Positions 43 through 31,309 of a DNA stretch of 64,000 nucleotides are shown here, one piece after another. The stretch comes from Paludibacteraceae bacterium (lineage in GTDB: Bacteria; Bacteroidota; Bacteroidia; Bacteroidales; Paludibacteraceae). The translations under genes were made by a program, and so were the position numbers. The first letter of the stretch is position 1. Each line of letters opens with the position of its first letter. Where the stretch lies: the NCBI GenBank assembly GCA_016285885.1, contig JAEERP010000003.1, forward strand, positions 1-64,000. The letters are read 5' to 3'. The notes beneath the pieces were generated by a model, which made no database searches, was not told the origin of the DNA, and saw only the letters and a list, made by a program, of their open reading frames with translations.

Positions 43-127
43 TACCGCAGGCGGGACTTGAACCCGCACGAACATTTCTGTTCAAAGGATTTTAAGTCCT
101 TCGTGTCTACCATTCCACCACTGCGGC
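43..127 (-). tRNA. tRNA-Leu (anticodon TAA)
   Basis: Read on the minus strand this folds as an 85-nt class II tRNA with a variable arm. The acceptor stem GCCGCAG pairs with CTGCGGT (one G-U pair), the anticodon loop reads TTAA around TAA in the context GGACTTAAAATCC, and the T-loop is GGTTCAAGTCC. The discriminator is A and no CCA is encoded. It lies 8 nt downstream of tRNA-Gly on the same strand and is probably co-transcribed with it. Confidence 0.95.
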
Positions 128-135
128 ATCCTTAG

Positions 136-438
<303 letters not shown>

Positions 439-12712: not shown

Positions 12713-13774
12713 TTAACCCTCCATGATCTTCATCTGTTGACGGACAGACTCCGCATGGATGGCCTCGAAGACCACCTTCATGAACTCGTCGTCCATCTCC
12801 ATGGCGGAACCAGCCTCCACACGCTTGTTGATGATCTCGTCGTAACGTTGGGTTTGGAGGATGGCCATCTCATGCTCCTTCTTGTAGATACCGATTTCCC
12901 TCGCCACACGCATACGTTTCGCCAACATCTCCGTCAAATCCATGTCGATCTCGTCGATTTGCTTACGCAGCTCCGCGAGGTTCTCCGTCGTCTGGTTGGT
13001 CTCCCTGATCACGAGGTTGTTGAGGATGAGGGAAAGGACATCCGGTGTGAGTTGCTGGGAAGCGTCGCTCCATGCGTGGTCAGGATCGCAGTGAGACTCG
13101 ATGATGAGACCGTCGAACTGGAGGTCCATCGCCTGCTGGCAAAGTGGGGAGATGAGGTCACGTCGACCGGAGATATGGCTTGGGTCGCAGATGATCGGCA
13201 ACTCAGGGATGCGGCGGTGCAACTCGATTGGAATGTGCCACTGCGGAAGGTTTCTATAGAGTTTCTTGTCGTAGGTGCTGAAACCTCTGTGGATAGCGCC
13301 CAAACGCTTGATGCCCGCGTTGTTGATACGCTGCAAAGCACCGATCCACAATTCGAGGTCAGGGTTGACAGGGTTCTTCACGAGGATAGGCACGTCCACA
13401 CCCTTCAAAGTGTCGGCGATCTCCTGCACAGCGAATGGGTCAGCCGTGGTACGCGCACCGATCCAGAGCAGATCCACGCCATACTTCAGAGCCTCCTCGA
13501 CGTGCTTAGCGGTAGCCACCTCGGTAGCGACGAGCATGCCCGTCTCCTTCTTCACCTGCTGCAACCATGGCAAAGCCGTCACACCGTTACCCTCGAAGCC
13601 CCCCGGCTTGGTACGTGGTTTCCACACACCTGCGCGGAACACCTTGATACCGTTCTTAGCCAACTGCTTAGCAGTATCCATCACTTGTTCTTCCGTCTCC
13701 GCGCTACATGGTCCCGCGATCACCAAAGGACGTTTGTCTTCAACACCCTTCAAATTCAATTTCTCTAATTCCAT
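12713..13774 (-). CDS. Bifunctional DAHP synthase / chorismate mutase (AroQ type)
   Basis: 353 residues. The N-terminal part (about 1-260) is a type I-beta 3-deoxy-7-phosphoheptulonate synthase, the first step of the shikimate pathway. It shows VIAGPCSAET, KPRTKPGGFEGNG, IGARTT, LVKNPVNPD, GAIHRGFSTYD and ICDPSHISGRRD. The C-terminal 90 residues (TENLAELRKQIDEIDMDLTEMLAKRM and following) are an AroQ chorismate mutase helix bundle. Fusion of the two lets prephenate-level signals control pathway entry. It lies 42 nt downstream of pheA in the same transcript and is therefore under the two leader attenuators. No tyrA or aminotransferase gene follows, unlike in many Bacteroides operons. Confidence 0.95.
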   Translation of the reverse strand: MELEKLNLKGVEDKRPLVIAGPCSAETEEQVMDTAKQLAKNGIKVFRAGVWKPRTKPGGFEGNGVTALPWLQQVKKETGMLVATEVATAKHVEEALKYGVDLLWIGARTTADPFAVQEIADTLKGVDVPILVKNPVNPDLELWIGALQRINNAGIKRLGAIHRGFSTYDKKLYRNLPQWHIPIELHRRIPELPIICDPSHISGRRDLISPLCQQAMDLQFDGLIIESHCDPDHAWSDASQQLTPDVLSLILNNLVIRETNQTTENLAELRKQIDEIDMDLTEMLAKRMRVAREIGIYKKEHEMAILQTQRYDEIINKRVEAGSAMEMDDEFMKVVFEAIHAESVRQQMKIMEG

Positions 13775-13816: not shown

Positions 13817-14662
13817 TCAAATCGTTTGTCTACCTACCTCGTATTCACCCAACACACGCATCTCGTTGGTCAATGGCCTGACGGCGGCGAGCGCCTCCTG
13901 GTAGCGTTGGTACTTCTCGAATTGCAGGTCGATATAGAACTGGTACTCCCACTCCCTACCGATGATAGGGGTAGATTGGATTCTTGTCAGGTTCATCTTG
14001 TAGAAGGACAAGATGGAGAGGATTTGGGCGAGACTACCCTCCTCATGGGAGAGCACCAGCAGGAGAGAGGCCTTGTTCGGGAACTTCCCCTTGTTCATCT
14101 CCTCCACCTTCGCTTCGTCGGCGACGACTAGGAAGCGGGTGAAGTTACGTTTGTTGGTCTCGATGCCCTTGGCAAGGATCTGCAGTCCATAGATCTCAGC
14201 CGCCAGTTCGCCGCAGATAGCCGCCTTGCCCATCAGTTTCTGCTCGGCCACCATCCGTGCGCTCGATGCGGTATCGTCGTACTCCACAGCCTTGAGGTGA
14301 CGGTTCTCTTTGAGGAAGTTCTGGCACTGCATCAGGGCGATGGGGTGCGAGTAGACCTCCTGGATATCGGCGAGGTCCTGATCAGGAAGGGCAACCAAGT
14401 TGTGCTTGATGCGCAGTTTCTGTTCCCCGGCGATGCGCAACCCGCTGTCCGCCAACAATGTATGGTTCTGCAACAGGCTACCCGCGATGGTGTTCTCGAT
14501 AGCGACGATGCCTATCATGTCCTTATCGGCGCAGACCGTCTCAAAGAGTTTGTCGAAGTGATCACATGGTACGATATCGACCTCTTCACCCCTGAAATAC
14601 TCTCTTGCGGCAATGTCATGGAAACATCCTGCAATACCTTGAATGGCAACTCTCTTCTTCAT
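13817..14662 (-). CDS. pheA: Prephenate dehydratase
   Basis: 281 residues from the Met of MKKRVAIQGIAGCFHDIAA. A longer start at 14680 would begin 1 nt after the T-run of the second attenuator and is less likely. The enzyme converts prephenate to phenylpyruvate in phenylalanine synthesis. The catalytic domain contains VAIENTIAGSLLQNHTLL and the region YDDTASSARMVAEQ. The Thr of the catalytic TRF motif lies in NKRNFTRFLVV. The C-terminal ACT domain (NKASLLLVLSHEEGSLAQILSIL, then NLTRIQSTPI) is the usual Phe-sensing regulatory module. Expression is probably controlled by two tandem leader-peptide attenuators upstream. Confidence 0.95.
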   Translation of the reverse strand: MKKRVAIQGIAGCFHDIAAREYFRGEEVDIVPCDHFDKLFETVCADKDMIGIVAIENTIAGSLLQNHTLLADSGLRIAGEQKLRIKHNLVALPDQDLADIQEVYSHPIALMQCQNFLKENRHLKAVEYDDTASSARMVAEQKLMGKAAICGELAAEIYGLQILAKGIETNKRNFTRFLVVADEAKVEEMNKGKFPNKASLLLVLSHEEGSLAQILSILSFYKMNLTRIQSTPIIGREWEYQFYIDLQFEKYQRYQEALAAVRPLTNEMRVLGEYEVGRQTI

Positions 14663-14681
14663 ATTCCTAACTCTATTCATT

Positions 14682-14714
14682 AAAAAGTCCCACCTCGTTT
14701 ACCAAGGTGGGACT
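14682..14714 (-). terminator. Attenuator 2 terminator, upstream of pheA
   Basis: Minus-strand hairpin AGTCCCACCT/AGGTGGGACT followed by five T, ending 19 nt before the pheA start. The 3' end of leader peptide 2 contains AAGGTG (14744-14739), which can pair with CACCTT in the left arm and so form a competing antiterminator when ribosomes stall on the Phe/Tyr codons. Confidence 0.88.
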
Positions 14715-14737
14715 CAAAATTTCAACAATAACGAACC

Positions 14738-14800
14738 TCACCTTATGAACCTCATAAAGTAAAAAAAGTAGTAATAATAAAAACACCAATTGTTCGTCAT
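14738..14800 (-). CDS. Leader peptide 2 (Phe/Tyr-rich attenuator peptide)
   Basis: 20-codon reading frame MTNNWCFYYYYFFYFMRFIR followed by TGA. It contains five Phe, five Tyr and one Trp, with ten of eleven consecutive codons from residues 5 to 15 aromatic. It lies between terminator 1 and terminator 2, and its last codons overlap the arm that would compete with terminator 2. This is the arrangement of a classic attenuator: charged tRNA-Phe and tRNA-Tyr let the ribosome reach the stop and the terminator form, while starvation stalls it and favours read-through. Translation has not been shown. Confidence 0.85.
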   Translation of the reverse strand: MTNNWCFYYYYFFYFMRFIR

Positions 14801-14826
14801 CGCTTTATTCTTTTAATCTCTGTAAC

Positions 14827-14852
14827 AAAAAAGTCCCGCATTTCTGCGGGAC
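14827..14852 (-). terminator. Attenuator 1 terminator
   Basis: Minus-strand hairpin GTCCCGCA/TGCGGGAC with a GAAA loop, followed by six T. The same GCGGGAC sequence occurs at 14898-14892 just after leader peptide 1. It can pair with the left arm (GTCCCGC) as an antiterminator. Confidence 0.92.
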
Positions 14853-14900
14853 CTTATTTCGATTGATTGATTACTCATTAATAAAATAGAAGTCCCGCTC

Positions 14901-14951
14901 TTACCTCACAAAGTAAAAGTAGTAAAAATAATATGAGAAAAAATTCTTCAT
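14901..14951 (-). CDS. Leader peptide 1 (Phe/Tyr-rich attenuator peptide)
   Basis: 16-codon reading frame MKNFFSYYFYYFYFVR followed by TAA, with five Phe and five Tyr. Nine of the eleven codons from residue 4 to 14 are aromatic. The predicted transcript starts only about 15 nt upstream. The stop codon is followed within 3 nt by GCGGGAC, the antiterminator arm of terminator 1. Content and position match leader peptides of amino-acid operons, here sensing Phe and Tyr for the pheA operon. Confidence 0.88.
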   Translation of the reverse strand: MKNFFSYYFYYFYFVR

Positions 14952-14971
14952 TGTTCTTCTATTTTGATGTG

Positions 14972-15000
14972 CAAATTTACAAAATTTTCCGGAACACAAA
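14972..15000 (-). promoter_or_regulatory. Promoter of the pheA leader
   Basis: TAAATTTG (14972-14979) on the minus strand matches TAnnTTTG, with TTTG (14997-15000) upstream at a 17-nt spacing, slightly short. It would start transcription just before leader peptide 1. Confidence 0.5.
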
Positions 15001-15191
15001 ACGATTTGTCACATTTTTTTCAAAATATTTCACAGCATGTCACGAGGAGGGGTCTGGCAAACGGCTGTTGGGATTTGCTGATTTTACTATTTGACGATTT
15101 ACGATTTACAAATAGGGACGCCAAACACATGACGGGGCCATTAGTTTTTAAGGGCGGTATACATACCGCAGAACTGAGGGAACTTTAGGTG

Positions 15192-15216
15192 GAGACGCAA
15201 GATTTTGCGTCTCTAC
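15192..15216. repeat. GAGACG palindrome (copy 1)
   Basis: GAGACGCAA and TTGCGTCTC are separated by a short AT core and followed by TAC. The same arms occur at 15355, 59308 and 59395, and a GAGACG/CGTCTC form occurs at 58576. Confidence 0.75.
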
Positions 15217-15354
15217 GAGGGGAACCGACCGCTATACAATATGCGTGTTCATGGGAAAGGGAGCGCATGAAATAGGGACGCAAAAATTGACGACACCATT
15301 GGCCTTTAACGGCGAGGGATATGTATAATCGCAGAAACGAGGCTACGTTAGGTG

Positions 15355-15379
15355 GAGACGCAAGATTTTGCGTCTCTAC
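15355..15379. repeat. GAGACG palindrome (copy 2)
   Basis: Identical core to the copy at 15192, inside the second unit of the 160-bp repeat. Confidence 0.75.
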
Positions 15380-15521
15380 GAGGGGAAACCGACCGCTATA
15401 CAATATGTGCGTTCATGGGGAAGGGAATGCGCATGAAAAAGGGACGCCAAACAAATGACGTCCCCACAATTCTTAATTGACTTCGTCGAACTGACGTTTC
15501 TTAATTCAAAATTCAAAATTC

Positions 15522-18064: not shown

Positions 18065-21000
18065 TCACTTCACCAGTACCTTTCTGAACTGGTTGTTGAT
18101 TCTCACGATATAAGCGCCACGGTAGCGAACCGGTATAGAGAAGCTCTCCGCATTGGACTTGCCGATGAAGAGTGTCACACCGTCGAAGTCCATCACTTGG
18201 ATATCCATACCCTCCGCGCGAAGGACGACGATCTCGCCCACCTCCGTGTAGACATCCACCGTAGGAGTCTCGACGAGGTCAACACCCACTGGGCTATCCG
18301 AGAAGACAGCTCTCAGGTTCAGGTCTTTCTCAGGCATCAAGCCATCCGCAGGCATGCCATCCCAACGGATGAAGTAGAGACCCTCCTTGGTTGGCTCCTC
18401 AGGCAATGGGATCACATCGCCGTACCTCATGCTATTGTTCTTAGCATATTGAACATCGTCGACGTAGAAGGTGACTGTGAAGTTAAAGTAGATCCAGCTA
18501 GCCACCAAGTCGATGTTACCAGAGTAGTCACGCGGATTGATTCTGTTAACCGTTCTTCTTCCATCGTACCAACCCTTAAACATCTTACCAGGGCCTTCGA
18601 TCGTAGGCAATGCGATAGACTCGTCGAAGGTGGTATAGTAGATGGTATCCAGCGCCACACCCTCGTTTCTCAGAACGATAGAGTAAGTAGCCACCTTATA
18701 GGTTGCGGAGACGGTGACATCGTGCGCCGGCATCGAAGCAGGTAGGCCATCCCACTTATCGAACTCATAGCCTGAACGGGCAGGAGCCTTAGAAGGTGAG
18801 ATCGCCGCACCATACAGATAGTGCGTTGTCTTGAAGACCTCTCCGTCGATGGTATAGATCAAGTTATAACCACCCAATTCAAACCTACCCGTGATTGTGA
18901 GATCTTGAGCCGGCATGATATCAGGCGTTGCGCTCCAACCACTGAAGGCGTAACCATCTTCCGTGGTCTCAGGGTCAGGGATCTTAACCAAAGGAGCACC
19001 CGCTTGGATAGTATCCCTTGCATATTCGATACCATCCACGACGTAGATGATCTCGAACGACTTAACACCCCAAGAAGCGGTCAACTCGAAGTCCTCCGCA
19101 GAGCTACCCGGCTTGATCTCCAAGTAAGTGTTGACACCATCCGTCCAGCCGAGGAATACCTGGCCATCCCTACCCTCATAAGTAGGAAGGACGATACGAT
19201 CCTCTATGGTGTAACTGATTCGTTCAACCTCCTCACCGTTCTCATCCCTCAACGTGATAGAGTAAGTGACAGGCTTCCAAATCGCATTGACAACCAAGTT
19301 CTTTCGAGGCATCGTCTCAGGGATAACCATATCCCATCCGTTGAACATATAGCCTCTCTTATTCGCAGGGTCTTGAACGGAAGCGGCATAAGCCTCGGTG
19401 CTCTCACCCGCATTGATCACGAAGTTCTGGTAAGTCACGCCATCCACCTTGTAGACGAGATTGAACTCGTTCGACACCGTCGTCCATTTAGCGGTGAGGG
19501 AAACAGTGCCCGCCACGATCTTAGGGAAGAAGACGTACTTGTCTTCATTCTTGTCATAATCGAGCAATTCACCGTTCAACATCCATCCATCGAACCGCAT
19601 ACCCTCACGGTCTTCCATCTTATCGATATAGAAGTAATCATCCTCCACAGTGTATTCATAAACGCCTACGACTTTGCCGTCATCCTCCAGCGTGATTTGG
19701 TAGGTGATGAGTCCCCATTGAGCGGTAACCGTCAAACCGCCCTCAGGCATGGTCGCAGGGATCTCCGGGCTCCATCCATTGAAGGTATAACCCGTCCTCG
19801 TAGGATCCGCGATTGCAGGGATTGGGTCTGCATAAACGACAGGAACCGTCTTCAATGTCTTACCATTAGAGATATACGTTATGTTGTACGTAGCGATGTG
19901 CCAAGTAGCAGTGAGTTCAACAGAACCTGCATCGTCCGTGCTGATGGAAGTCACGATCTCGCCGTTCTGATCCCTCCAGCCCATGAAGTCATAGCCTTCG
20001 TAGTAAGGGATATGATCATTCAAGTCGATGACCTTATGATCCTCCACCGTATAGGTGATGGTCTCGAAGGTATCGAGTTGGATCTCATATGTGACGAGAT
20101 CCCATTGAGCGGTAACCGTCAACGTATCCAAAGGCAACAACTCCGGCAATTCAGCATTCCAGCCGATGAAGTCATAACCCTTCCTTACAGGATCATCCAA
20201 CTTCACGTATGGTTCATCAGCGAATCCAGAGGTTGTATCGGACTTCACGTCATATCCATAGTTGTACACGATAGCGGTAGGACGCTTCGTGATGGACAAT
20301 GTGCCATAAGTCGTTTCGATAACATAGTTGATGGCTTTCGTGTTCTCATTCAACTCATATGTGAACTCATTCGCCACAGAGCCGAAGTTAGTGATCGTAC
20401 CGCTCACATTGAACGTTGCGCCCTCACCTTCCGCAAATCCGTTACCGCCGATCGTCACCATGTTGTTGGTCAACGGTGTTCTATCGTATACCTTCGTATC
20501 CGTAGCACTGGTTAGGGTAACCGAACGCCTCAAGATGCTCAACAGACCAATCCTTGGCTCGTCGAACGTATAGTTCTTGGTGACATCATTCTCGCCACGA
20601 ACCACCTTATAGCCCGTCACCTTATTGGCGGTCGAACCGAAGTCTGTAATGGATCCCTCGACATCCACAATCAGCTCATCGCCTTCAGCCAACACATCCG
20701 GCGTGAAGGTAAAGCCATTGTCGGTCAGAGGAGTTCCGTTGTACATCCTATCATTGCTATTCGCAGTGATGACGATAGGAGTCTCGATCTTAGTGACGGT
20801 CAACGTACCCATGATCACCTCGATATCGTAGTTGCCAGCATCCGTATTGCTTTGGAGCGTATATGTGAACGTGTTATCAACCGTACCAATCTCGGTGATG
20901 GTACCCGTCACAGTGAATTTAGCACCCTCGCCACGTACGAAGCCTCTACCCGTAGCGGTAGGTGTAACCTCAACCGTGTTATTCGTCAAAGGAGTACCGT

Positions 21001-24000
21001 CGTAGACCTTCTCGTCCGTAGCGGAGGTGAAGGTCACCGGACGTTTCGTCACGGTCAGCTTACCATCGACAGGTGTAGCGAAGGTGTAGTTCTCCGTCAC
21101 ATCCACACCGTCACGAAGTACTCTATAACCCGTCACGACATTCGGTACAGAACCCACATTGATGATGGAACCCTCCACATCGGCGAACAACTCATCACCC
21201 TCGACCAAGATGCCTCTGGTGTACTTGAAGTTATCATCATACAACTCACCTCCGTCATAAACCATCGTGCCAGAGTATGCGGTGATGGTGATGGTGTCAA
21301 GGATTGGAGTGATAGTCAACCAACCATCGCTGACGAGGTTGAAGCTTACGGTGAAGTTCTCGTTCACATTCGTGAACTGACCTACCTCCAGACCCATCGG
21401 GTAAGTACCGATGGTCGTACCCGCTGCGACGCTGTCGTTCACATGGATGAAGTCGTCTTTCGTGTACAACGGAGTGTTCGCATTCCAATCATAGTCATAC
21501 ACATACTGAGTCAAACCATTGTAGGTGAGCGTATCTACATGACCGGTGATGTCCACAATCACGTCAAGGCGATTGATGGTCAACCAGCCGTCCGTCACGT
21601 CGAACGTCACACTGAAGTTGTTGTTCGTGTTCATGAACTGATCATTCTTCAAGCCCATCATGTAAGTACCGACGGTCGTACCCTTAGCGACGCTGTCGCC
21701 CGCATAGGTGAAGTAGTCCGCAGTGTTGTACAAACTGTCTGACGCAATCCACTCATAACCAGGGATGGCCTGCTCTGAGCCGTTGTAGATTACGGTATCC
21801 ACATGACCGGTGATGTTCACGAGGACGTCGAGAGGCTTGATCGTCAACCAACCGTCCGTCACACTGAACTCAACATCGAAGTTGTTGTTCGTGTTCTTGA
21901 ATTGGTCTTTCTTCAGGCCCATCATATACGTGTTAACGTCCGTACCCGTCGCCACGCTGTCACCTTCGTAAGAGAAGTAGTCCGCAGTGTTGTACAAACT
22001 ATCTGACGCATTCCACTCATAACCATAAACGGAATGAGCCAAGGCGTCGTAGGTCACAGTGTCCACATGACCAGTAATGTCTACGAGGACGTGGAGAGGA
22101 TTGATCGTCAACCAACCGTCAGACTTCACTTCGAACGTCACGTTGAAGTTGTCGTTCGTATTCTCGAATTGGCCTTCGCTCAAATTCATGTAGTAGGTGT
22201 CAATGGTCGTACCCGCAGCCACGCTATCGCCTTGATGGATGAAGTAGTCCGCTGTGTTGTACAACTCCTCTGTCGCTTTCCACTCATAACCGTAGATGGC
22301 CTGCTCTGAACCGTTGTAGATCACTGTATCCTTGTGTCCGGTGATTTCCACGAGAACATCCAGAGGTGTAATCGTCAACCAACCGTCAGACTTCACTTCG
22401 AACGTCACGGTGAAGTTGTCGTTCGTATTCTCGAATTGGCCTTCGCTCAAATGCATGTAGTAGGTGTCAACGGTCGTACCCGCTGCCACGCTATCTCCTT
22501 GATGAGTGAAGTAGTCCGCTGTGTTGTACAACTCTTCTGTCGCTTTCCACTCATAACCGTAGATGGCCTGCTCTGAACCGTTGTAGATCACTGTATCCTT
22601 ATGTCCGGTGATTTCCACGAGGACATCCAGAGGTGTAATCGTCAACCAACCATCAGACTTCACTTCGAACGTCACGTTGAAGTTGTCGTTCGTGTTCTCG
22701 AATTGGCCTTCGCTCAAATTCATGTAGTAAGTGTCAACGGTCGTACCCGCAGCCACGCTATCACCTGCATAAGTGAAGTAGTCCGCAGTGTTGTACAACT
22801 CCTCTGTCGCTTTCCAATCATAACCGTAGATGGCCTGCTCTGAACCATTGTAGATCACTGTATCCTTATGTCCGGTGATTTCCACGAGGACATCCAGAGG
22901 ATTGATCGTCAACCAACCATCAGACTTCACTTCGAACGTTACGTTGAAGTTGTCGTTCGTGTTCTCGAATTGGCCTTCGCTCAAATGCATGTAGTAGGTG
23001 TCAACGGTCGTACCCGCAGCCACGCTATCGCCTTGATGAGTGAAGTAATCCGCAGTGTTGTACAACTCTTCTGTCGCTTTCCACTCATAACCGTAGATGG
23101 CCTGCTCTGAACCATTGTAGATCACTGTATCCTTATGTCCGGTGATTTCCACGAGGACATCCAGAGGATTGATCGTCAACCAACCGTCAGACTTCACTTC
23201 GAACGTTACGGTGAAGTTGTCGTTCGTGTTCTCGAATTGGCCTTCGCTCAAATGCATGTAGTAGGTGTCAACGGTCGTACCCGCAGCCACACTATCGCCC
23301 TGATGGATGAAGTAGTCCGCTGTGTTGTACAACTCCTCTGACGCTTCCCAATCATAACCGTAGAGGGTCTGCTCTGAACCGTTATAGATCACTGTATCCT
23401 TATGTCCGGTGATTTCCACGAGAACATCCAGAGGCTTGATGACCAAGCTGTCATTGCTGTTGACCTCGAACTTCACATCCTTGAAGTTATCGTTGATGTT
23501 CTCGAAGAAGGTCTCGTCGAACGTCATGCCATAGCTACCGACGTTGGTACCCTTGGCGATTGAGTCAGATTCCGCACCCGTGAAGTTCATGTATGATTCG
23601 ATGTACAACGGATCGTTGCTGTCGAAGTCGTAGCCGCTCACCATATGTTCCTCGCCGTCGTAAGTGATGGTGTCAGAGTGCTTGGTGATGGTGATGACGA
23701 CGTTCTCACGAGGGGTGATCACCATCGTGTCTGGTACTACCACGAACTTCACATCCTTGAAGTTAGCGTTGTCGTTCTCGAAGTCCGTCTCCTCAACTGG
23801 CATCGAGTAGCTACCAGCATCCGTACCCGTGATGGTCGAGTCGCCACTGAAGGTGAAGTCAGACTCCTTATACAAACCATTGTTGATTGCAACCTCGTAA
23901 CCGCTCACCGTATGTGCCTCGCCGTCATAGACGAACGTGTCCGCATGTTCGGTGATCGTCACCACAACACCCTCCAGAGGCTTGATGACCAAGCTGTCGT

Positions 24001-27000
24001 CGCTGTTGACCTCGAACTTCACATCCTTGAAGTTAGCGTTGATGTTCTCGAAGTAGGTATCGTCGAAGCTCATGCCGTAGCTGCCGACATTGGTGCCCTT
24101 GGCAATCGAGTCAGATGCTTCTCCGTTGAACCTCATATAGCTTTCGATGTACAATGGATCGTTGCTGTCGAAGTCGTAACCTGTCACTGTATGCTCTTCT
24201 CCATTGTAAGTGATGACATCGGAGTGCTTGGTGATGGTGACGATGACGTCCTCACGTGCCTCGATGTCCAGAGAGCCGTCCGTCACCTCGAACGTCACGC
24301 CCGTGAAGTTAGGGTCATCGTAGCTGAACTGCTCGGACTTCAAGCCCATTGCGTAGTGGCCGACGTTCGTGCCGCTGGCTACTGCCGTGCCCGTGAACTG
24401 AACCTTGCTCGCGTCGTAAAGGGTGGATGCGCAACTCAGGTCGTAGCCCGTCACGCTCTGCTCTTCCCCGGTGTATGTCTCCGTGCCGCTGTGGCCCGTT
24501 ACCGTGATCGTCAACGTAGCAGCCTCGATGTCCAGAGAGCCGTCCGTCACCTCGAACGTCACATCAATATTATCATCCCCATAACTGAACATGCTCTCCA
24601 ACAGACCCATGTAATAGGTGTTCACGTTGGTTCCTTTAGCCACAGCTGGATTTGAGCACGTGATCTTTGATTGGGAGAACAATGCCTTAGCAGCATCCGT
24701 TCCTTCTAAAGAAGTAACAGTCCAACCTGTAACGGACTGTTCGTTTCCGTTGTATGACTTGGTGTCGGTATTACCTGCTATGTTGATCGTCAACGGCTGC
24801 TTCGTGATCTCCAACACCCCACTCACCATCGCCGTGTCATAGTAGCAGGTGACATCCTGGGTGCCACGCATGATCTTGAATGAAGTCACCTTGTTGGCTA
24901 CTGTTCCTACATTGGTTATGGTTCCACTAACCACTACATCTTTGATTTCATCACCTGACTCTAGGGCACCTGTAGTGGTGTAACCAGCATTGGTCAGTGG
25001 AGTACCATCGTATGTCTTGCTATCACTCTTAGCCTTAACGGTTATCTTTTGCGTCAACTGTGCGATAGCGGTATTCTGGGTATTCTGGCATCCATTCGCA
25101 TCAGCTACTGTAACAGCATAGGAACCGTCTGGCAAACCCTCAATCTTAAAGCTTGACGCATTCGCCTGAGATACACCTGCAGCACCTGACCAACTTACGC
25201 TGTAAGGCGCTTGACCCCCTTCAATCGTTCCCTCTATCACACCATCAGGGGTATTCTGACAGCGGGACTCGACAGAAGTGATGGAAGCTTTCAACGTATT
25301 CGCTGGCACAACCACTTTCACCTCCTTGGTAGCCTCTGAACCACAGGCATCTTTCACTGTAACAGTGACAGAAATTTCTTGAGCAACATTTGTCTGCTCA
25401 TAAGACGTTCCCGCTTCATAACTTTGGCTCACAAACGACACATCACCGCCACATTCACTGGTAGTTTTACCCAACACAATGGAAGAGAGGTCTGGCATCG
25501 TATAGGTACATCCACCCGCTGGGGTAGCCGTCACATCATCAATGTCATCAATCGTTGGTGCGGCAGCTTCTGTCCATGTGTATGACACAACCATAGGGTC
25601 CGCCTCATTCCCGGCAGCATCTTTATAGTTTGCCGTCCATGTTTTCGTAATCTGACAACCATTACTACTTTGAGAAGAAGTGACGTCTGCCTCTGGCACA
25701 TTCCCCTCTCCGTCGCAATTGTCAGAGAACGTGAATTGTGGTGCCACAACGGTCGGGTTACAACCCCAGTCGTATCCATTAGGTTTGCTCTCTGTGTTCA
25801 ACGCTATCACCGGCTTCGTCCCATCCTCCACCCTAACTGTCTGCGTGCAGGTGGAGAAGACGGATCCGCTGTTCCGTGCCTGCCATACGATCGTGTCGCC
25901 GTCGGAGAAGCTGGAAGTAACGCCTTCCGTGAATTCCGCAAACTCTCCATCGTTTATCTTATAGAAACAAGACATGCCTTCGCCTAATACATTTGACGCA
26001 ACCAACGTATACGCCGCCGTGCAGTCGGTGGCATCGTCGGCGGTCTGCAGCGTGATTTCCTCACAGGAGAGGTTCACCTTCAGGGTACCTAACGTCTCCG
26101 TGATGACATAATTGCTTCGCTTAGCGGTTGCTCCTTCAGCACCATCCTCACCCTCAAAGGCAATGGTGTAGGTGTTATCGCTCTCGCCCACCTCGGTCTG
26201 ACTACCCGTAATCTTGACAGTGGCAGTCTCACCATTCACATATCCTGAGATTATGACATCGTTATTGGTCAACGCACTTCCGTCATACACCTTCTCATCA
26301 CTTCCCGTCTGAATGGTCAACTCAATAGGATTAATCTTCAATGTGCCATAGATAACGGTATCGATCACATATTTATTCGATTTGTCTTTCGTGTTCTTCA
26401 ACACATAACCGGTGATCTCATTCGTGTACTCGCCAGCATCCGTTCCCGTAACCGAAGCATTCACACCGGTAAACTCGATACCCGTCACCTCCGTATTATC
26501 CTTCAAATAAGCCTTATAGCCCGAGATTGTATGCGTCTCACCATCATAGTCTATCGTATCGCTGTTAGCAACCAACGTGACGCCTTTGTAACTGCACACA
26601 TGAAGTGTCGCCCTATAGTTCGCATGGTAGGCTTTTGTCCAATTGGCCACCTCCCAATCCGTCTCCGTATCTAACCATCCTAGAGGATTCGTGTACCAAC
26701 TTTCGTCCTCATGCATTCGATTTTCAACACGAATTTTTTCATATGTAACCGTGAAATATGGCTCGTAATAAGCATCCGTCGGAGCCGTGGCCCGATATAC
26801 ATATTCCACCGTATCATTTTGCGTACCAGCAATACGAAGTTTCAAATTGCTGAAATCATACGCCTGCTCATCTGGAGTGCAGGTATAATGCCATGTATTC
26901 TTATTGACATCACCGACATTCAACAATGAAGCCAAAGGCCCGTAGATATGTGTCCTGTTCAGACGGTAATACGTCGAACGATTTCCTATTTGAAGGAAAT

Positions 27001-30000
27001 TATACAGGATTTGATCCTGGTATATGTTATGTAAAATTATAGTATAATCACGGTGGAACCCTGACGTGGTATTCGGGTCATCGTATCTTTGCTCCTCAGA
27101 GACGAGCCATCTAGGCGTATTTCCATTCATTCCACCGATCTTATTCTTCACAACCGCGATCAGCGGATTCGCTTCAACCGTGTAATAAAGTATCGGGGCA
27201 CTCTCATCAGGCACATAATCGATCGGCTTATACACATACGTGTTTCCTCCGACAGTAATCTCAGGCAAGGAAGTTTCAAAATCATACTCATCCGCCTCGT
27301 ACAGGTCTTTCGCTCCAAATTTATATTGGCTGCCCGCCGTGGTTATGTTTAGACTATCCAAGTACTGTTGGGACGACTTCATCGGCAGGATGGTCGTCTT
27401 CGCCAAACGATAGTAAGTATTGTCGATTTTTGCGATATTATACAATGGTTCCGTACCATCCTTGATAGTGAGCGTACCTGGCTCATAAGTGATGCGATAG
27501 TTACCCACCTGCTCAGCGCCCATAGGGGTGATAGCATAGGTACCCACATCTTCGCCCTCTTCGCGGGTGAAATTATAGGCGAGTCCGAGCTGTTCCATTG
27601 TTTCGCCCGCCACAAAACCCGTCACCGTCGCCGTCCATTCCGGATCTGACGCCCCGATATAGTTCGTTTTCTCCTTGTCGTCCGCCTTGACCGTCAGCTC
27701 AGCCGGGCAGATACGCAACTCACCGTCTCTCGGATAGAGCGTCACATCATAATTCATATCGACAGGAAGGCTGAACATCTCCGCCGTGATTGGCAGGATG
27801 TAGGTATAGTCTTTTTCCGAAGGACCGGCATCTGTCTTTGTCAGTGTAATGCTTTCTGCTTGTGCACGCAGATCATCTCCATATTGCTCATCATACAAAT
27901 CATCGGAAATGTTGATTTGAGAGCCATGATCACGGAATCCAATCGTTCTTTCTACACCATCATAGCATGGTCCATTCGTCCAACGATCCGCATCCATATT
28001 GATGGTCACCGTCCTCTGATCAATCTTCAACGTTCCCGACACATACTCGATGTTGTAATAATCGTCGTCACACAAACCATCGATGACGGCATTCTTCGGA
28101 GTCGTGAACACGACATTCTCCGACACGTTGGTCACCTCACCATCATAGCTGATGGAAGAAAGGGTATGTCCCTCCATCAGACCTGACACCGACACGTCCG
28201 ACACGCCATTGCTGCTAAGCGGATTGCCATCATAGGTCTTATTTTTAGAGCTAGCGGTGAGGGTAAGGTCTTTTTGGAATATCGCTTTGATCTCCAAAGA
28301 GGTAGGACCATCAGGTGCTACCCAGTAGACCAGTTTACCACCTGTCCCTTCATATTCCGTCGTGTTGTTTCCATCCCATATGAGAGCCTTCTTGTAGGTA
28401 TAACCTGTCAAGCTTGTATTGAACTCATAATCCATGTTGGGTTGGATGGCCACCCTAATCGGAGCCACGTTCGGAATCGGCACCTCACAAACATCCACAC
28501 AACTGATGTTGAACATCACGCTCTCATAGTCGAGGTAGTAGATTGTGAAGACGTTCGATTCTCCGTCCTGACCCAATTGGAAAGACTTCGAAGCCTCTTC
28601 CGGATAGTAATCCTTCACCAACAAATCGCCCGTTGCGCCATGACCCTCCATCCACGTCTTATCCACATTCTCCGCCATGACGGTCACACTCGTCGTGTTA
28701 CCAGGCACTTCCACCCAATTACTCTCCTCATGCACTTCCACCTCAGGATGGTCCTTCAGGCAGTAACGCACTTTATATTTGTTATTCTCGGGCTTCGTCA
28801 CATAATAGAAGGTGATCATGTTGCCCTCGTAATCAAGCGTTACATTCTTTTCCGCTTGGTCTGGCAAATAACCTGCAATGGTCATCGCCTGTTCCGTAAT
28901 CACCTGTCCGTAGGCTAATGCCGCACTCGTCACCGCCTTCTCCGTGAAGAGCGGAGTGTCAGTACCATCCTCCAAATACCTCACCGTATAGCTCAACGGA
29001 ATGAGTCGCCAATGCGCATAGAGGGTCTCATTCCCTGTCACCTGCGTACCAACCGTATAACGTGTGCCTCCGACAGGATCGGTGTACCAACCATTAAACT
29101 CATAGTGAGCACGGATTGGCTGTTGCAGATCCTCCACAGACTTGTACTTCTCCACCGTCTGCGTGTTGTATGGTTCGGAAGCACCCTCGTAGTTGTAGTT
29201 AAATGTGACCGTATATTGTGGAGCTTGCCAGCAAGCATACAATGCCAGATCGTTGCCTGGCATCACATCGAACACATAGTCGTTCTGTAGCTTGGAATCC
29301 GCCTTCCAACCACACCAAGTATAGTCTTCCTTGCCGACAGGAGTGCTTGGGGTGTAATTGTAGGTGGAGGTGTTGATGTTGGCACCGAATTTCACATCTG
29401 GAATAGACTGAAGGACCTCTCCATTATAGATATAATTGATGTCGTATGTGTTTCTATTATAATAGAAATTATAGGTGGTTGCTTGCGTACCAGAATTCCC
29501 GTGATCATAGACGTATCCAGGAATGTCCTTTGCAGACAACGTCGTTTGTGCTGGAGTCTTGAAGGTTTGACTGTATTTATCCGACTTCACATACTCATTA
29601 TCATCAGCATTTTGGAACCAATAGTTCACCGTAATTGTATTTCCCCCATTTATCCATTGCGCCGTATAGGTAATCGTAGTGCCAGTAGTAGGCAACATGT
29701 CCAAATCTACCATCAAACGCTTGGTTGAATATATCGTAGAGCTTCCCTCAGGCAGCCAACCACGAAAATTCACATCTGTCCTTTGGTTCCCATTCCTCCT
29801 ATAATATCCCGTCACCTCCATCGGCCAAGAAGTAGAAATATCCTGACCCAATTTCACCGTCATGGTATAAGACAATTGGTTTTGTTGATTGGTCACATTA
29901 TGGCCAACCAAGGTGGCAGAAACATTATAAGTTTGACTAAACCATCCACCTGTCTCATACGTTCCAGCATTAAATCGGAACGTATACTCTTTCAATTTAT

Positions 30001-31309
30001 AATAAACATAGAGTACGGCAGATCCATCCGCCTTCACCTCGATACTTGAAGAGGCATTCCGTTCATTATCCTTTTCCCAGCCAGTACGAGTCTTGTTAGG
30101 GATGCTTGCGTCCGTCGCCGTGACGGTTGTTCCTACAACCGCTTGACGGGTCTCCGAATTATCATAGACGAAAGAGGTCGCTGTGCCCTCTGCATTATAT
30201 TTCTCGAACAGATAGATAATAGTATAGTCCACCGTCACACCCGACCACTTCGCATGGAGCGTTTGGTCCGCCTCGAGCAAAACGCTCGAACCAGCCGCTT
30301 GAGTGCAAGCCTCGTCAAGGTACCACCCCTCGAAGTTGTAACCAGTGCGAGTCGGGTGTTGGATACTGGAGATAGAGACCGATGTGCCATACGGCTCTTG
30401 AATCGCATTGACAGGTGTCCCACCCGTAGTGTTGAAAGTGAGCAAGAACTTCTTACGGGTATACAAGACATCTATCTCCTGTCCCGCGGCCTGCGTGATC
30501 ACGGTTGGCGTAGTGCTCTCAAAATCAGCGAACGGGAAAGACTTCACATCCGCCGTGACGGTAGAATTCAAGACGCCATGCACGTCATCCACCCTTGAGC
30601 CAGCTATTTCCGTATAACCACTTCCCGTCAGATCCTTCAGTTTATAGACATACGAATAGGTGGCTGTATAAGGGACATACTTCACACGTTTCAACAACTC
30701 GCGGTTCTGATTCGCCGATGCGAGATCACTTGGCGTGATGGATATCGACAGCTGCTCCGGATAGAAAATATTACCATCAGAGGCATTGGGTGTACAACCC
30801 ACCACCTCACTTGGCACCGCCGTTTGTGCGGGAGAGACGATCGTGAACGGATGTTCCGCAGTCACCTTCGTGCCATCAATAATATAGTCGGCGCGATCAA
30901 ACACAGAGTCCTTGCCTTGGACGCAATCATCATACCAATACTCTACCTTAACCGTATAAAGATTAATGCTCTCGAAAACGGCATGTATCTTCATATCACC
31001 ATTCACCGTTGTAGTAGTGGAGACCATTCTGTCAGACTCGTCCGCCCATCCCAGGAAGTTCTTTCCCGAGCAGAAAGGATCTTGAGGTAAGAACATGAAA
31101 GTACTACCGGTTTGACGGGTCATCAACGCATGTTCTTGTTCCCCTTGGCCACAATCATAGACGAAGCGCACCGTGTGGGCGGCAGCCTGAGCAGGAGCCA
31201 AGGCGGTAACGAGAGAGATGGCGAAGAAGATTGAGAGCAAACATCTCGTCATCCAGCCCCTTCGTTTCCGATTCAACACTGAAGACATAAGATTATATAT
31301 AGTTTCCAT
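18065..31309 (-). CDS. Giant T9SS-type repeat surface protein (4414 aa)
   Basis: 4414 residues in one uninterrupted frame. The signal peptide ends near APAQAAAHT (about residue 44). Residues ~45-1000 hold InlB-type (Listeria-Bacteroides) repeats with the motif TRTGYNFEGWYLD, plus MucBP-like segments. MBG-like modules (KTYDGNPLSSNG) begin near 1016. HYR/Ig-like regions lie at ~1826-1996 and an SprB-like repeat (SRCQNTPDGVIEGTIEGG) at ~2000-2080. From ~2170 to ~3340 comes a run of about 13 MBG-like units, five of them nearly identical (89 aa each). More MBG units follow, then a second set of InlB-type repeats to ~4335. The last ~75 residues (GAYIVRINNQFRKVLVK) resemble a T9SS type A sorting tail. 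There is no catalytic domain. An adhesin or surface fibre role is likely; binding to cellulose or plant surfaces is only inferred from the neighbouring cellulases. Confidence 0.85.
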   Translation of the reverse strand: METIYNLMSSVLNRKRRGWMTRCLLSIFFAISLVTALAPAQAAAHTVRFVYDCGQGEQEHALMTRQTGSTFMFLPQDPFCSGKNFLGWADESDRMVSTTTTVNGDMKIHAVFESINLYTVKVEYWYDDCVQGKDSVFDRADYIIDGTKVTAEHPFTIVSPAQTAVPSEVVGCTPNASDGNIFYPEQLSISITPSDLASANQNRELLKRVKYVPYTATYSYVYKLKDLTGSGYTEIAGSRVDDVHGVLNSTVTADVKSFPFADFESTTPTVITQAAGQEIDVLYTRKKFLLTFNTTGGTPVNAIQEPYGTSVSISSIQHPTRTGYNFEGWYLDEACTQAAGSSVLLEADQTLHAKWSGVTVDYTIIYLFEKYNAEGTATSFVYDNSETRQAVVGTTVTATDASIPNKTRTGWEKDNERNASSSIEVKADGSAVLYVYYKLKEYTFRFNAGTYETGGWFSQTYNVSATLVGHNVTNQQNQLSYTMTVKLGQDISTSWPMEVTGYYRRNGNQRTDVNFRGWLPEGSSTIYSTKRLMVDLDMLPTTGTTITYTAQWINGGNTITVNYWFQNADDNEYVKSDKYSQTFKTPAQTTLSAKDIPGYVYDHGNSGTQATTYNFYYNRNTYDINYIYNGEVLQSIPDVKFGANINTSTYNYTPSTPVGKEDYTWCGWKADSKLQNDYVFDVMPGNDLALYACWQAPQYTVTFNYNYEGASEPYNTQTVEKYKSVEDLQQPIRAHYEFNGWYTDPVGGTRYTVGTQVTGNETLYAHWRLIPLSYTVRYLEDGTDTPLFTEKAVTSAALAYGQVITEQAMTIAGYLPDQAEKNVTLDYEGNMITFYYVTKPENNKYKVRYCLKDHPEVEVHEESNWVEVPGNTTSVTVMAENVDKTWMEGHGATGDLLVKDYYPEEASKSFQLGQDGESNVFTIYYLDYESVMFNISCVDVCEVPIPNVAPIRVAIQPNMDYEFNTSLTGYTYKKALIWDGNNTTEYEGTGGKLVYWVAPDGPTSLEIKAIFQKDLTLTASSKNKTYDGNPLSSNGVSDVSVSGLMEGHTLSSISYDGEVTNVSENVVFTTPKNAVIDGLCDDDYYNIEYVSGTLKIDQRTVTINMDADRWTNGPCYDGVERTIGFRDHGSQINISDDLYDEQYGDDLRAQAESITLTKTDAGPSEKDYTYILPITAEMFSLPVDMNYDVTLYPRDGELRICPAELTVKADDKEKTNYIGASDPEWTATVTGFVAGETMEQLGLAYNFTREEGEDVGTYAITPMGAEQVGNYRITYEPGTLTIKDGTEPLYNIAKIDNTYYRLAKTTILPMKSSQQYLDSLNITTAGSQYKFGAKDLYEADEYDFETSLPEITVGGNTYVYKPIDYVPDESAPILYYTVEANPLIAVVKNKIGGMNGNTPRWLVSEEQRYDDPNTTSGFHRDYTIILHNIYQDQILYNFLQIGNRSTYYRLNRTHIYGPLASLLNVGDVNKNTWHYTCTPDEQAYDFSNLKLRIAGTQNDTVEYVYRATAPTDAYYEPYFTVTYEKIRVENRMHEDESWYTNPLGWLDTETDWEVANWTKAYHANYRATLHVCSYKGVTLVANSDTIDYDGETHTISGYKAYLKDNTEVTGIEFTGVNASVTGTDAGEYTNEITGYVLKNTKDKSNKYVIDTVIYGTLKINPIELTIQTGSDEKVYDGSALTNNDVIISGYVNGETATVKITGSQTEVGESDNTYTIAFEGEDGAEGATAKRSNYVITETLGTLKVNLSCEEITLQTADDATDCTAAYTLVASNVLGEGMSCFYKINDGEFAEFTEGVTSSFSDGDTIVWQARNSGSVFSTCTQTVRVEDGTKPVIALNTESKPNGYDWGCNPTVVAPQFTFSDNCDGEGNVPEADVTSSQSSNGCQITKTWTANYKDAAGNEADPMVVSYTWTEAAAPTIDDIDDVTATPAGGCTYTMPDLSSIVLGKTTSECGGDVSFVSQSYEAGTSYEQTNVAQEISVTVTVKDACGSEATKEVKVVVPANTLKASITSVESRCQNTPDGVIEGTIEGGQAPYSVSWSGAAGVSQANASSFKIEGLPDGSYAVTVADANGCQNTQNTAIAQLTQKITVKAKSDSKTYDGTPLTNAGYTTTGALESGDEIKDVVVSGTITNVGTVANKVTSFKIMRGTQDVTCYYDTAMVSGVLEITKQPLTINIAGNTDTKSYNGNEQSVTGWTVTSLEGTDAAKALFSQSKITCSNPAVAKGTNVNTYYMGLLESMFSYGDDNIDVTFEVTDGSLDIEAATLTITVTGHSGTETYTGEEQSVTGYDLSCASTLYDASKVQFTGTAVASGTNVGHYAMGLKSEQFSYDDPNFTGVTFEVTDGSLDIEAREDVIVTITKHSDVITYNGEEHTVTGYDFDSNDPLYIESYMRFNGEASDSIAKGTNVGSYGMSFDDTYFENINANFKDVKFEVNSDDSLVIKPLEGVVVTITEHADTFVYDGEAHTVSGYEVAINNGLYKESDFTFSGDSTITGTDAGSYSMPVEETDFENDNANFKDVKFVVVPDTMVITPRENVVITITKHSDTITYDGEEHMVSGYDFDSNDPLYIESYMNFTGAESDSIAKGTNVGSYGMTFDETFFENINDNFKDVKFEVNSNDSLVIKPLDVLVEITGHKDTVIYNGSEQTLYGYDWEASEELYNTADYFIHQGDSVAAGTTVDTYYMHLSEGQFENTNDNFTVTFEVKSDGWLTINPLDVLVEITGHKDTVIYNGSEQAIYGYEWKATEELYNTADYFTHQGDSVAAGTTVDTYYMHLSEGQFENTNDNFNVTFEVKSDGWLTINPLDVLVEITGHKDTVIYNGSEQAIYGYDWKATEELYNTADYFTYAGDSVAAGTTVDTYYMNLSEGQFENTNDNFNVTFEVKSDGWLTITPLDVLVEITGHKDTVIYNGSEQAIYGYEWKATEELYNTADYFTHQGDSVAAGTTVDTYYMHLSEGQFENTNDNFTVTFEVKSDGWLTITPLDVLVEITGHKDTVIYNGSEQAIYGYEWKATEELYNTADYFIHQGDSVAAGTTIDTYYMNLSEGQFENTNDNFNVTFEVKSDGWLTINPLHVLVDITGHVDTVTYDALAHSVYGYEWNASDSLYNTADYFSYEGDSVATGTDVNTYMMGLKKDQFKNTNNNFDVEFSVTDGWLTIKPLDVLVNITGHVDTVIYNGSEQAIPGYEWIASDSLYNTADYFTYAGDSVAKGTTVGTYMMGLKNDQFMNTNNNFSVTFDVTDGWLTINRLDVIVDITGHVDTLTYNGLTQYVYDYDWNANTPLYTKDDFIHVNDSVAAGTTIGTYPMGLEVGQFTNVNENFTVSFNLVSDGWLTITPILDTITITAYSGTMVYDGGELYDDNFKYTRGILVEGDELFADVEGSIINVGSVPNVVTGYRVLRDGVDVTENYTFATPVDGKLTVTKRPVTFTSATDEKVYDGTPLTNNTVEVTPTATGRGFVRGEGAKFTVTGTITEIGTVDNTFTYTLQSNTDAGNYDIEVIMGTLTVTKIETPIVITANSNDRMYNGTPLTDNGFTFTPDVLAEGDELIVDVEGSITDFGSTANKVTGYKVVRGENDVTKNYTFDEPRIGLLSILRRSVTLTSATDTKVYDRTPLTNNMVTIGGNGFAEGEGATFNVSGTITNFGSVANEFTYELNENTKAINYVIETTYGTLSITKRPTAIVYNYGYDVKSDTTSGFADEPYVKLDDPVRKGYDFIGWNAELPELLPLDTLTVTAQWDLVTYEIQLDTFETITYTVEDHKVIDLNDHIPYYEGYDFMGWRDQNGEIVTSISTDDAGSVELTATWHIATYNITYISNGKTLKTVPVVYADPIPAIADPTRTGYTFNGWSPEIPATMPEGGLTVTAQWGLITYQITLEDDGKVVGVYEYTVEDDYFYIDKMEDREGMRFDGWMLNGELLDYDKNEDKYVFFPKIVAGTVSLTAKWTTVSNEFNLVYKVDGVTYQNFVINAGESTEAYAASVQDPANKRGYMFNGWDMVIPETMPRKNLVVNAIWKPVTYSITLRDENGEEVERISYTIEDRIVLPTYEGRDGQVFLGWTDGVNTYLEIKPGSSAEDFELTASWGVKSFEIIYVVDGIEYARDTIQAGAPLVKIPDPETTEDGYAFSGWSATPDIMPAQDLTITGRFELGGYNLIYTIDGEVFKTTHYLYGAAISPSKAPARSGYEFDKWDGLPASMPAHDVTVSATYKVATYSIVLRNEGVALDTIYYTTFDESIALPTIEGPGKMFKGWYDGRRTVNRINPRDYSGNIDLVASWIYFNFTVTFYVDDVQYAKNNSMRYGDVIPLPEEPTKEGLYFIRWDGMPADGLMPEKDLNLRAVFSDSPVGVDLVETPTVDVYTEVGEIVVLRAEGMDIQVMDFDGVTLFIGKSNAESFSIPVRYRGAYIVRINNQFRKVLVK
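21308..23434 (-). repeat. In-frame 264-267 bp tandem repeat array
   Basis: Five nearly identical 267-bp units (about 22100-23434) each encode 89 residues beginning LDVLVEITGHKDTVIYNGSEQ and ending SDGWLTINP. Three more diverged 264-267 bp units (LHVLVDITGHVDTV, LDVLVNITGHVDTV, LDVIVDITGHVDTL) continue to about 21308. The units keep the reading frame and differ mostly at scattered positions (YGYEW/YGYDW, YFTHQ/YFTYA, MHL/MNL). This suggests recent expansion by unequal crossing-over or gene conversion. Array length could differ between strains or be collapsed in assembly. Confidence 0.9.

Follow-up and report, generated by a model that had tools for sequence, protein, structure and literature searches.

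Two putative serial Phe/Tyr leader-peptide attenuators upstream of pheA in a Paludibacteraceae genome, and their counterparts in Bacteroidales

Layout of the pheA leader region

The stretch of DNA analysed here, the window, is 64,000 nucleotides long and comes from a Paludibacteraceae bacterium. On its minus strand, a single promoter-like site is followed by a leader and its terminator, a second leader and its terminator, then pheA and a gene for a DAHP synthase fused to chorismate mutase. This is the order proposed by an initial annotation, made from the letters alone, and all its elements were found in place, together with the five Phe and five Tyr codons that it had counted in each leader. 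The features are the following.

14972..14979, minus strand: Bacteroidota-type -7 promoter element TAAATTTG, 5' of leader 1 (TAnnTTTG consensus)
14956..14965, minus strand: segment A, AAAATAGAAG, close to the presumed 5' end of the transcript and complementary to segment B
14901..14951, minus strand: putative leader ORF 1, MKNFFSYYFYYFYFVR, from ATG at 14951 to TAA at 14901, with 5 Phe and 5 Tyr
14913..14919, minus strand: segment 1 of the 1:2 hairpin (CTTTTAC), inside the Phe/Tyr codons (paired in 94.2% of cells across 67 homologues)
14898..14904, minus strand: segment 2a (GTAAGAG), in the stop-codon region, pairing with segment 1
14892..14898, minus strand: antiterminator arm 1, GCGGGAC, whose homologous columns covary with the 5' arm of the terminator
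14883..14892, minus strand: segment B, CTTCTATTTT, complementary to segment A
14825..14855, minus strand: terminator 1, stem AAGGTCCCGCA/TGCGGGACTTT (14855-14830) and U-run
14792..14803, minus strand: segment A2, GCGATGACGAAC, overlying the start of leader 2 and pairing with B2
14738..14800, minus strand: putative leader ORF 2, MTNNWCFYYYYFFYFMRFIR, from ATG at 14800 to TGA at 14738, with 5 Phe and 5 Tyr
14736..14744, minus strand: antiterminator arm of unit 2, AAGGTGAGG, with one internal mismatch, including the stop codon
14723..14737, minus strand: segment B2, GGTTCGTTATTGTTG
14681..14715, minus strand: terminator 2, stem GAGTCCCACCTTG/CGAGGTGGGACTT (14715-14685) and U-run
13817..14680, minus strand: pheA, prephenate dehydratase (HMM match), alternative start at 14662
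12713..13774, minus strand: DAHP synthase fused to chorismate mutase (HMM match)

The HMM matches for prephenate dehydratase and for the fused DAHP synthase-chorismate mutase both fall under the NCBIfam curated cut-offs, and it is at this level that the fusion already annotated in the operon is borne out. The pheA ATG at 14680 directly adjoins the U-run of terminator 2. Most matches outside the genus start at residue 9 of pheA, so that the true start may be the ATG at 14662 (MKKRVAIQG). A competing arm had been expected near the end of each leader. Both exist, but that of unit 2 is mismatched once and contains the stop codon. Compared with shuffled sequences, the unit-2 stretch (121 nt) folds at a z of -8.3 and the unit-1 stretch (147 nt) at -4.9. 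When the 64-kb window was scanned for leaders with a terminator and a competing arm in 12 residue classes, the aromatic class yielded these two sets only; in the other classes the same scan gave five sets, all judged unremarkable.

In the clade of the window, a helix joins the presumed RNA 5' end to the segment past arm 1 (AAAATAGAAG:CTTCTATTTT), with counterparts AAAATCGAAG:CTTCGATTTT in L090 and CATCAAAATC:GATTTTGATG in L101, and a similar helix (A2:B2) lies over the start codon of unit 2 in the window. This A:B pairing beats shuffles at six of 16 near-clade loci and at one of 63 others. At most it characterizes the clade, and a protector helix as a general element was rejected outside the near clade on the latter count. 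Pairing of segment B with the promoter stretch TTTGCA was also dropped, since by the usual spacing this stretch should be upstream of the transcript start. Where it forms, A:B pairing would close the start of the leader once a first ribosome has gone through, a late shut-off of initiation.

Several other features of the window deserve mention in their own right. Between cysS and the pheA promoter (15100-15470, minus strand) there are repeated stretches of the GGCGTCCCTATTT type, one of which forms a terminator-like hairpin (15465-15440). Unit 2 (14684-14834, minus strand) has a weak match, likely due to chance, to the Rfam family BTnc231, a Bacteroides sRNA (23 bits for a gathering threshold of 80.4, E 0.014). 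An ORF of 4414 aa (18065-31309, minus strand), with repeated sections such as DVLVEITGHKDTVIYNGSEQ, codes for a very large repetitive, presumed surface protein, and two adjoining tRNA genes lie at the start of the window (43-208, minus strand).

Structure, spacing and covariation of the attenuators

Structural conservation was followed in an alignment, A1, of 67 non-redundant unit-1 or single leaders taken from 86 candidate stretches; the 19 left aside are two of unit-2 type (L007, L008) and 17 near-duplicates or stretches with atypical or long leaders, a choice that favours the helices somewhat. The antiterminator helix has 89.8% of its cells paired, with changes on both sides in seven of nine pairs (58 such cells), a result matched in 0 of 500 shuffles; slid out of register, it falls to 30-49%, and its outermost pair is unpaired in 26 of 65 cases. 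The terminator helix is paired in 98.1% of cells, eight of its ten pairs having changed on both sides. A further helix joins the CTTTTAC codons to GTAAGAG at the stop codon, with 94.2% of cells paired and both-side changes in two of seven pairs. Taken jointly with the terminator, this 1:2 hairpin had its covariation score equalled in 0 of 500 shuffles; the shuffle control used for the A1 helices takes no account of kinship between sequences. The hairpin was first found post hoc, when pairing of the leader ORF with the post-stop region, meant as a control, gave a median z of -2.08; RNAalifold, unprompted, picked both this hairpin and the terminator helix.

The three A1 helices, as predicted structures, correspond to the 1:2, 2:3 and 3:4 pairings of an attenuator of the trp type. 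The short leader ORF is rich in codons for amino acids of the pathway, its composition mostly in line with operon content except in one genus, and an intrinsic terminator sits between leader and structural gene. In unit-1 and single leaders the antiterminator is exclusive and covaries, and the 1:2 hairpin overlaps the leader codons. Aligning the upstream regions of pheA in relatives, as proposed at the outset, brought out homologous Phe/Tyr leaders with covarying arms (A1, 0 of 500 shuffles), which supports the initial claim of two serial Phe/Tyr leader-peptide attenuators. The resulting structural model (R1) could help annotate pheA leaders that no Rfam family matches at cut-off.

Pairing energies point the same way. 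Between the post-stop region and the 5' arm of the terminator they beat shuffles with a median z of -3.57, 71 of 94 cases being below -2. Own partners pair at a mean of -12.3 kcal/mol versus -9.4 for swapped ones; only 31 of 94 own pairs beat 90% of the swapped partners, because the arms have a common core. Covariation was counted on unit-1 and single leaders; for the antiterminator of unit 2, of which few independent sequences exist, the support comes from pairing energies. The two units appear to be independent, as illustrated by L090 and L091, whose pheA are 96.8% identical: all three unit-1 arms differ together (GGG/CCC/GGG versus GAG/CTC/GAG), while the unit-2 arms are of CCC type in both. 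In the window, arm 3 of unit 1 could also pair across with arm 2 of unit 2; this was discarded, as the unit-1 arms of L091 are of TCTC type and its unit 2, examined by eye, is not.

The distance between codons and arm is nearly constant. In A1, the end of the last aromatic codon is exactly 11 nt from arm 1 in 51 of 67 leaders, the same distance as measured by hand in both units of the window, and the stop codon is 2 nt from the arm in 52 of 67, while seven of the 67 extend beyond the arm start. Among the 630 run codons counted, 557 have T or C at the third position and 534 code for Phe or Tyr. This near-fixed spacing suggests that a stalled ribosome would leave the arm free and that a ribosome at the stop codon would cover it, if usual ribosome footprints apply here. 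As a separate observation, TATGTAAA or TATGCAAA recurs shortly after arm 1 in many Bacteroidales leaders, often as an ATG followed immediately by a stop codon.

Distribution and history of single and tandem units

A strict scan, asking for an aromatic-rich leader, a competing arm and a terminator, was applied upstream of 155 pheA loci, two genomes being counted twice (L139/L195, L158/L211) and one locus (L087) being cut 69 nt upstream of pheA. It returned units at 131 loci, versus 0 in 465 dinucleotide shuffles, with one unit at 112 loci, two at 19 and none at 24; these counts are lower bounds, as the scan misses L097-L100, L197 and unit 2 of L200, L204 and L242, plain by eye.

Within the genus, pheA is present in 15 of 16 genomes. 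Eleven of the 15 have the tandem (G000, G001, G003, G004, G005, G006, G008, G009, G013, G014, G015), with L096 used for G008 because L087, the other contig of that genome, is the one that ends 69 nt upstream of pheA. Ten of these tandems pass the strict scan, into which L096 was not entered. The architecture is kept at 68% pheA identity to the window, with clearly different leaders (MKNLVYSYYFFFYFYFKQ and MIIISIHNGYFFYFFYHFIS). The remaining four genomes (G002, G007, G011, G012) have one unit, so that two units are not essential; L088 and L089 (G011, G012) have unit 2 alone, and L094 and L095 have one unit.

Wider sampling places the tandem within a much larger population of single units. In the family, 150 genomes were sampled, 102 of which have pheA. 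Of the latter, 89 belong to genera other than that of the window, and upstream DNA was examined in 77 of these. In 76 of the 77, a terminator accompanies a leader of Phe/Tyr or Phe type, as a single unit in 74 cases; the two tandems (L101, L112) both belong to genus code g6. The one pheA among these 77 upstream regions where no Phe/Tyr leader was found (L159) has a promoter-like element near its start codon. The order sample consists of 157 genomes, 69 with pheA, giving 63 readable loci outside the family. A leader precedes pheA at 57 of them; six were judged leaderless (L207, L210, L217, L254, L255, L257), L257 having a weak one with 2 Phe and 2 Tyr. At L207 and L210, other genes appear to precede pheA, and L217 is from a 1.2-Mb genome. 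Eleven of the 63 loci, from nine family codes, look tandem (L200, L204, L206, L209, L234, L235, L240, L242, L248, L250, L253), a call made by reading the sequences and weak for L240 and L248, each with one weak or bulged terminator. Five further tandems (L178, L179, L180, L186, L188) were chosen through model hits and do not form a frequency sample.

Eighty named loci, from Paludibacter, Proteiniphilum, Bacteroides, Parabacteroides, Alistipes and others, overlap the genome samples and were kept out of the above counts. They mostly have a single leader, and the six tandems among them (L001, L002, L003, L004, L006, L065) are all near kin of the window; extra units at L060 and L069 were judged false. 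With stricter filters, the structural model has a match in 90 of 294 genomes of the order and 18 of 198 of the phylum. The 11 best phylum matches besides the window all lie before pheA, ten of them with a recognizable Phe/Tyr leader. In Bacteroidales, pheA is generally preceded by a single predicted Phe/Tyr attenuator, which also occurs in other Bacteroidota. On this evidence, aromatic amino acid synthesis would generally be under leader-peptide attenuation in this phylum, a major one of gut and rumen that differs from E. coli in its transcription signals.

In a tree of 57 pheA proteins, out of 74 available, the tandem/single label needs at least eight changes, four of them forced by well-supported branches (14.9 on average with shuffled labels); long branches make the deep placements unsure, and f13, f58, f99, f66 and f87, tandem families known from upstream DNA only, are outside this tree. 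Unit 2 of the window's own family (f1) has TTTACTTTATG..ATAAGGTGGGA, or close variants, in common with f57 and f83. An HMM built on it scores unit 2 of f83 and f57 at 49.2, 42.8 and 32.5 bits, the last, one f57 unit 2, with a narrow margin over the best non-unit-2 leader (at most 31.1). Because these units rank first, unit 2 seems older than the genus, which weakens its derivation from unit 1 by a duplication specific to the genus. Unit 2 of f64 scores 20.4 bits, and other tandem families may be independent in origin. The series now available in nature, with no unit, unit 1 only, unit 2 only or both, could show what is gained from a second serial attenuator.

Signals, serial logic and known systems

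What the leaders sense can be approached through operons of different content. A pheA was considered lone when no aminotransferase, aroF or tyrA follows it. Lone pheA genes preceded by a leader occur in four lineages, never with more than one Tyr in the run: MTRFFTHFFFFFTQQ in G167 (F7 Y0), MRRNSFRFFFFFAFFFCNGRNGVSYLY in G177, with no Tyr in its run and a close version in G367, MYFDFVFGFLFCFPKS in G243 (F6 Y1), and MITINNSFFFFFFRSDPEKGL in G187 (F6 Y0), where pheA is followed by a gene that by its sequence is ilvD-like. L207 and L210 are lone pheA without a leader; L205 is not lone, as an aminotransferase follows its pheA. Conversely, six leaders of aminotransferase-aroF or tyrA operons devoid of pheA have three to six Tyr each: MNNTFGYYAFYYYFFYNN (tyrA-aroF, G167), MIKNISVFAYFYYYFYFSKK (aminotransferase-aroF, G177), MATQLFVYSYYFYFSWTS (G252), MSTFAYFYYYFYFNIK (G283) and the less Tyr-rich leaders of G433 (F7 Y4) and G187 (tyrA, F5 Y3). 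When pheA is followed by an aminotransferase or aroF, a Phe-only leader is found in two of 71 named-locus operons (L020, L022), from one kind of organism; this leader (MKHFFFTSFCFFFFFFFME..., F11 Y0), placed before pheA-aminotransferase-aroF, rules out that mixed operons always have mixed leaders. L219 has an F10 Y2 leader before pheA-aroF, and the leader of L051 starts with GTG. Leader composition mostly follows operon content, a suggestive trend that comes from four lineages, and split operons with Phe-only leaders make a natural experiment on sensing.

Of the 19 strict-scan tandem loci, 16 have a TAnnTTTG element no more than 60 nt ahead of leader 1 and none has one between the units, a test of this consensus that leaves room for other promoter types. 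The gap between U-run and leader 2 is 12-46 nt in 17 of the 19 (61 and 150 in the other two). With no such promoter between them and short gaps, the units are most simply seen as serial gates on one transcript. We put at roughly four in five the probability that two complete trp-type ribosome-mediated attenuators stand there in series, behind one promoter and before pheA and the DAHP synthase-chorismate mutase gene.

From this anatomy we infer leader translation, stalling, termination in vivo and a multiplicative action of the two gates. A ribosome running through the Phe/Tyr codons would reach the stop codon and cover the adjacent arm, letting the terminator form. If either charged tRNA were scarce, the ribosome would stall at any Phe or Tyr codon and leave the arm free to pair with the terminator's 5' strand, and polymerase would read through. 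If the leader were not translated, the hairpin between leader codons and stop region would occupy the arm region, with termination by default. Since polymerase would have two gates to pass, leakages would multiply to a lower basal value and the induction curve would be steeper than with one. An AND-type sensor had been proposed: polymerase must indeed pass both terminators, but both leaders carry one and the same Phe plus Tyr signal. With the same kind of codons in both, the pair would be expected to multiply leakage and steepen the curve rather than to test for two signals.

Other readings account for part of these data. A single unit might be the working switch, its companion being a decaying relic or a terminator that just lowers basal transcription. 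The genus lineages with unit 2 alone (L088, L089) or with one unit (L094, L095) fit this view, as do the 74 single units among the 76 loci with a leader in the rest of the family. We consider it unlikely: leader, arm and terminator remain complete in both units of the genus tandems down to 68% pheA identity, and unit 2 is recognizable in two further families. The leaders could also sense different signals, leader 2 adding Trp or one leader being devoted to Phe and the other to Tyr, in a logic gate like that of mgtCBR in Salmonella, a two-signal precedent (PMC3641672). Leader 2 does contain a Trp codon in the window's close relatives, as does the leader run of L101. Yet both leaders are mixed in all 11 genus tandems, and the initial suggestion of Trp sensing by leader 2 fails on a single codon, kept in close relatives and absent from L088-L093 of the same genus, which makes divergent signals quite improbable.

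The least credible reading takes the hairpins as constitutive terminators or as sites for RNA-binding proteins, the leader ORFs being left unread. It agrees with the putative nature of leader translation and with the lack of an Rfam family at cut-off here, but not with Phe/Tyr frames that are kept while their codons vary, with the near-fixed spacing from last aromatic codon to arm, or with a leader composition that mostly tracks operon content. Beyond the serial attenuators preferred here, we advance only tentatively, at somewhat less than even odds, a broader proposal. Ribosome-mediated attenuators placed in series for the same amino acids would be a recurrent Bacteroidales architecture, repeatedly gained and lost (at least eight changes), with an old unit 2 common to several families; they would multiply repression and sharpen the Phe/Tyr response, and, as the helix between the 5' end and the post-arm stretch would block the leader start once a first ribosome has passed, each decision would fall to one pioneer ribosome.

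A close classical counterpart is the enterobacterial Phe leader (pheA/pheST; Rfam RF01859), where a Phe-rich peptide and a terminator/antiterminator switch precede a Phe gene. The window has likewise a Phe-bearing leader peptide and such a switch before a Phe gene but, unlike this leader, it mixes Phe with Tyr and has two serial units; against RF01859, unit 1 scores 24.3 bits and unit 2 17.5, below the gathering threshold of 55. Lopatovskaya et al., in 2010, are said to have treated attenuation in bacteria, and may have dealt with single leaders in Bacteroidota. RF01692, the Bacteroid-trp motif, presumably a trp leader from its name, has no match at cut-off in the window or in 11 related loci. 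It is a predicted Bacteroidetes cis-regulatory RNA (PMC2864571).

The initial annotation regarded such systems as little described in the phylum. This holds for the serial form, which we did not find in print, and does not for the single pheA attenuator, which is the rule in Bacteroidales and of which hints exist. The available sections of a report on Flavobacterium psychrophilum give clues of leader-peptide attenuation before amino-acid operons and a conserved 5' element before pheA, with no Rfam match (PMC9723704); both cases belong to Bacteroidota, but those sections contain no leader sequence, structure or tandem. Short ORFs recalling attenuation leaders are evoked in general terms for Bacteroides thetaiotaomicron (PMC7366714), and a survey of Actinobacteria reports no conserved phenylalanine-linked RNA element in that group (PMC1262725). 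In the open-access literature, which mostly leaves out subscription journals, we found neither a description of Bacteroidales pheA leaders nor serial leader-peptide attenuators for the same signal in an amino-acid biosynthesis leader. Leader attenuation was already hinted at in Bacteroidota; its serial biosynthetic form, for the same amino acids, appears to be new.

A comparable tandem is that of Salmonella mgtCBR, with attenuators for ATP and proline, which its authors call a singular example (PMC3641672). As described there, two short ORFs in one leader each have their own attenuator, as in the window; unlike mgtCBR, the window has the same amino acids twice and two intrinsic terminators, in an operon for amino-acid biosynthesis. 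A different signal for each ORF, the hallmark of mgtCBR, is not what the codons of the two leaders suggest, their Phe plus Tyr content being the same. Serial gates in one leader are otherwise familiar from the pyr operon of B. subtilis and from tandem T-boxes. The mgtCBR article mentions tandem riboswitches of metE (PMC3641672). In all these systems the gates are also in series, but the sensor is a protein, a tRNA or a metabolite, whereas here it would be the translating ribosome.
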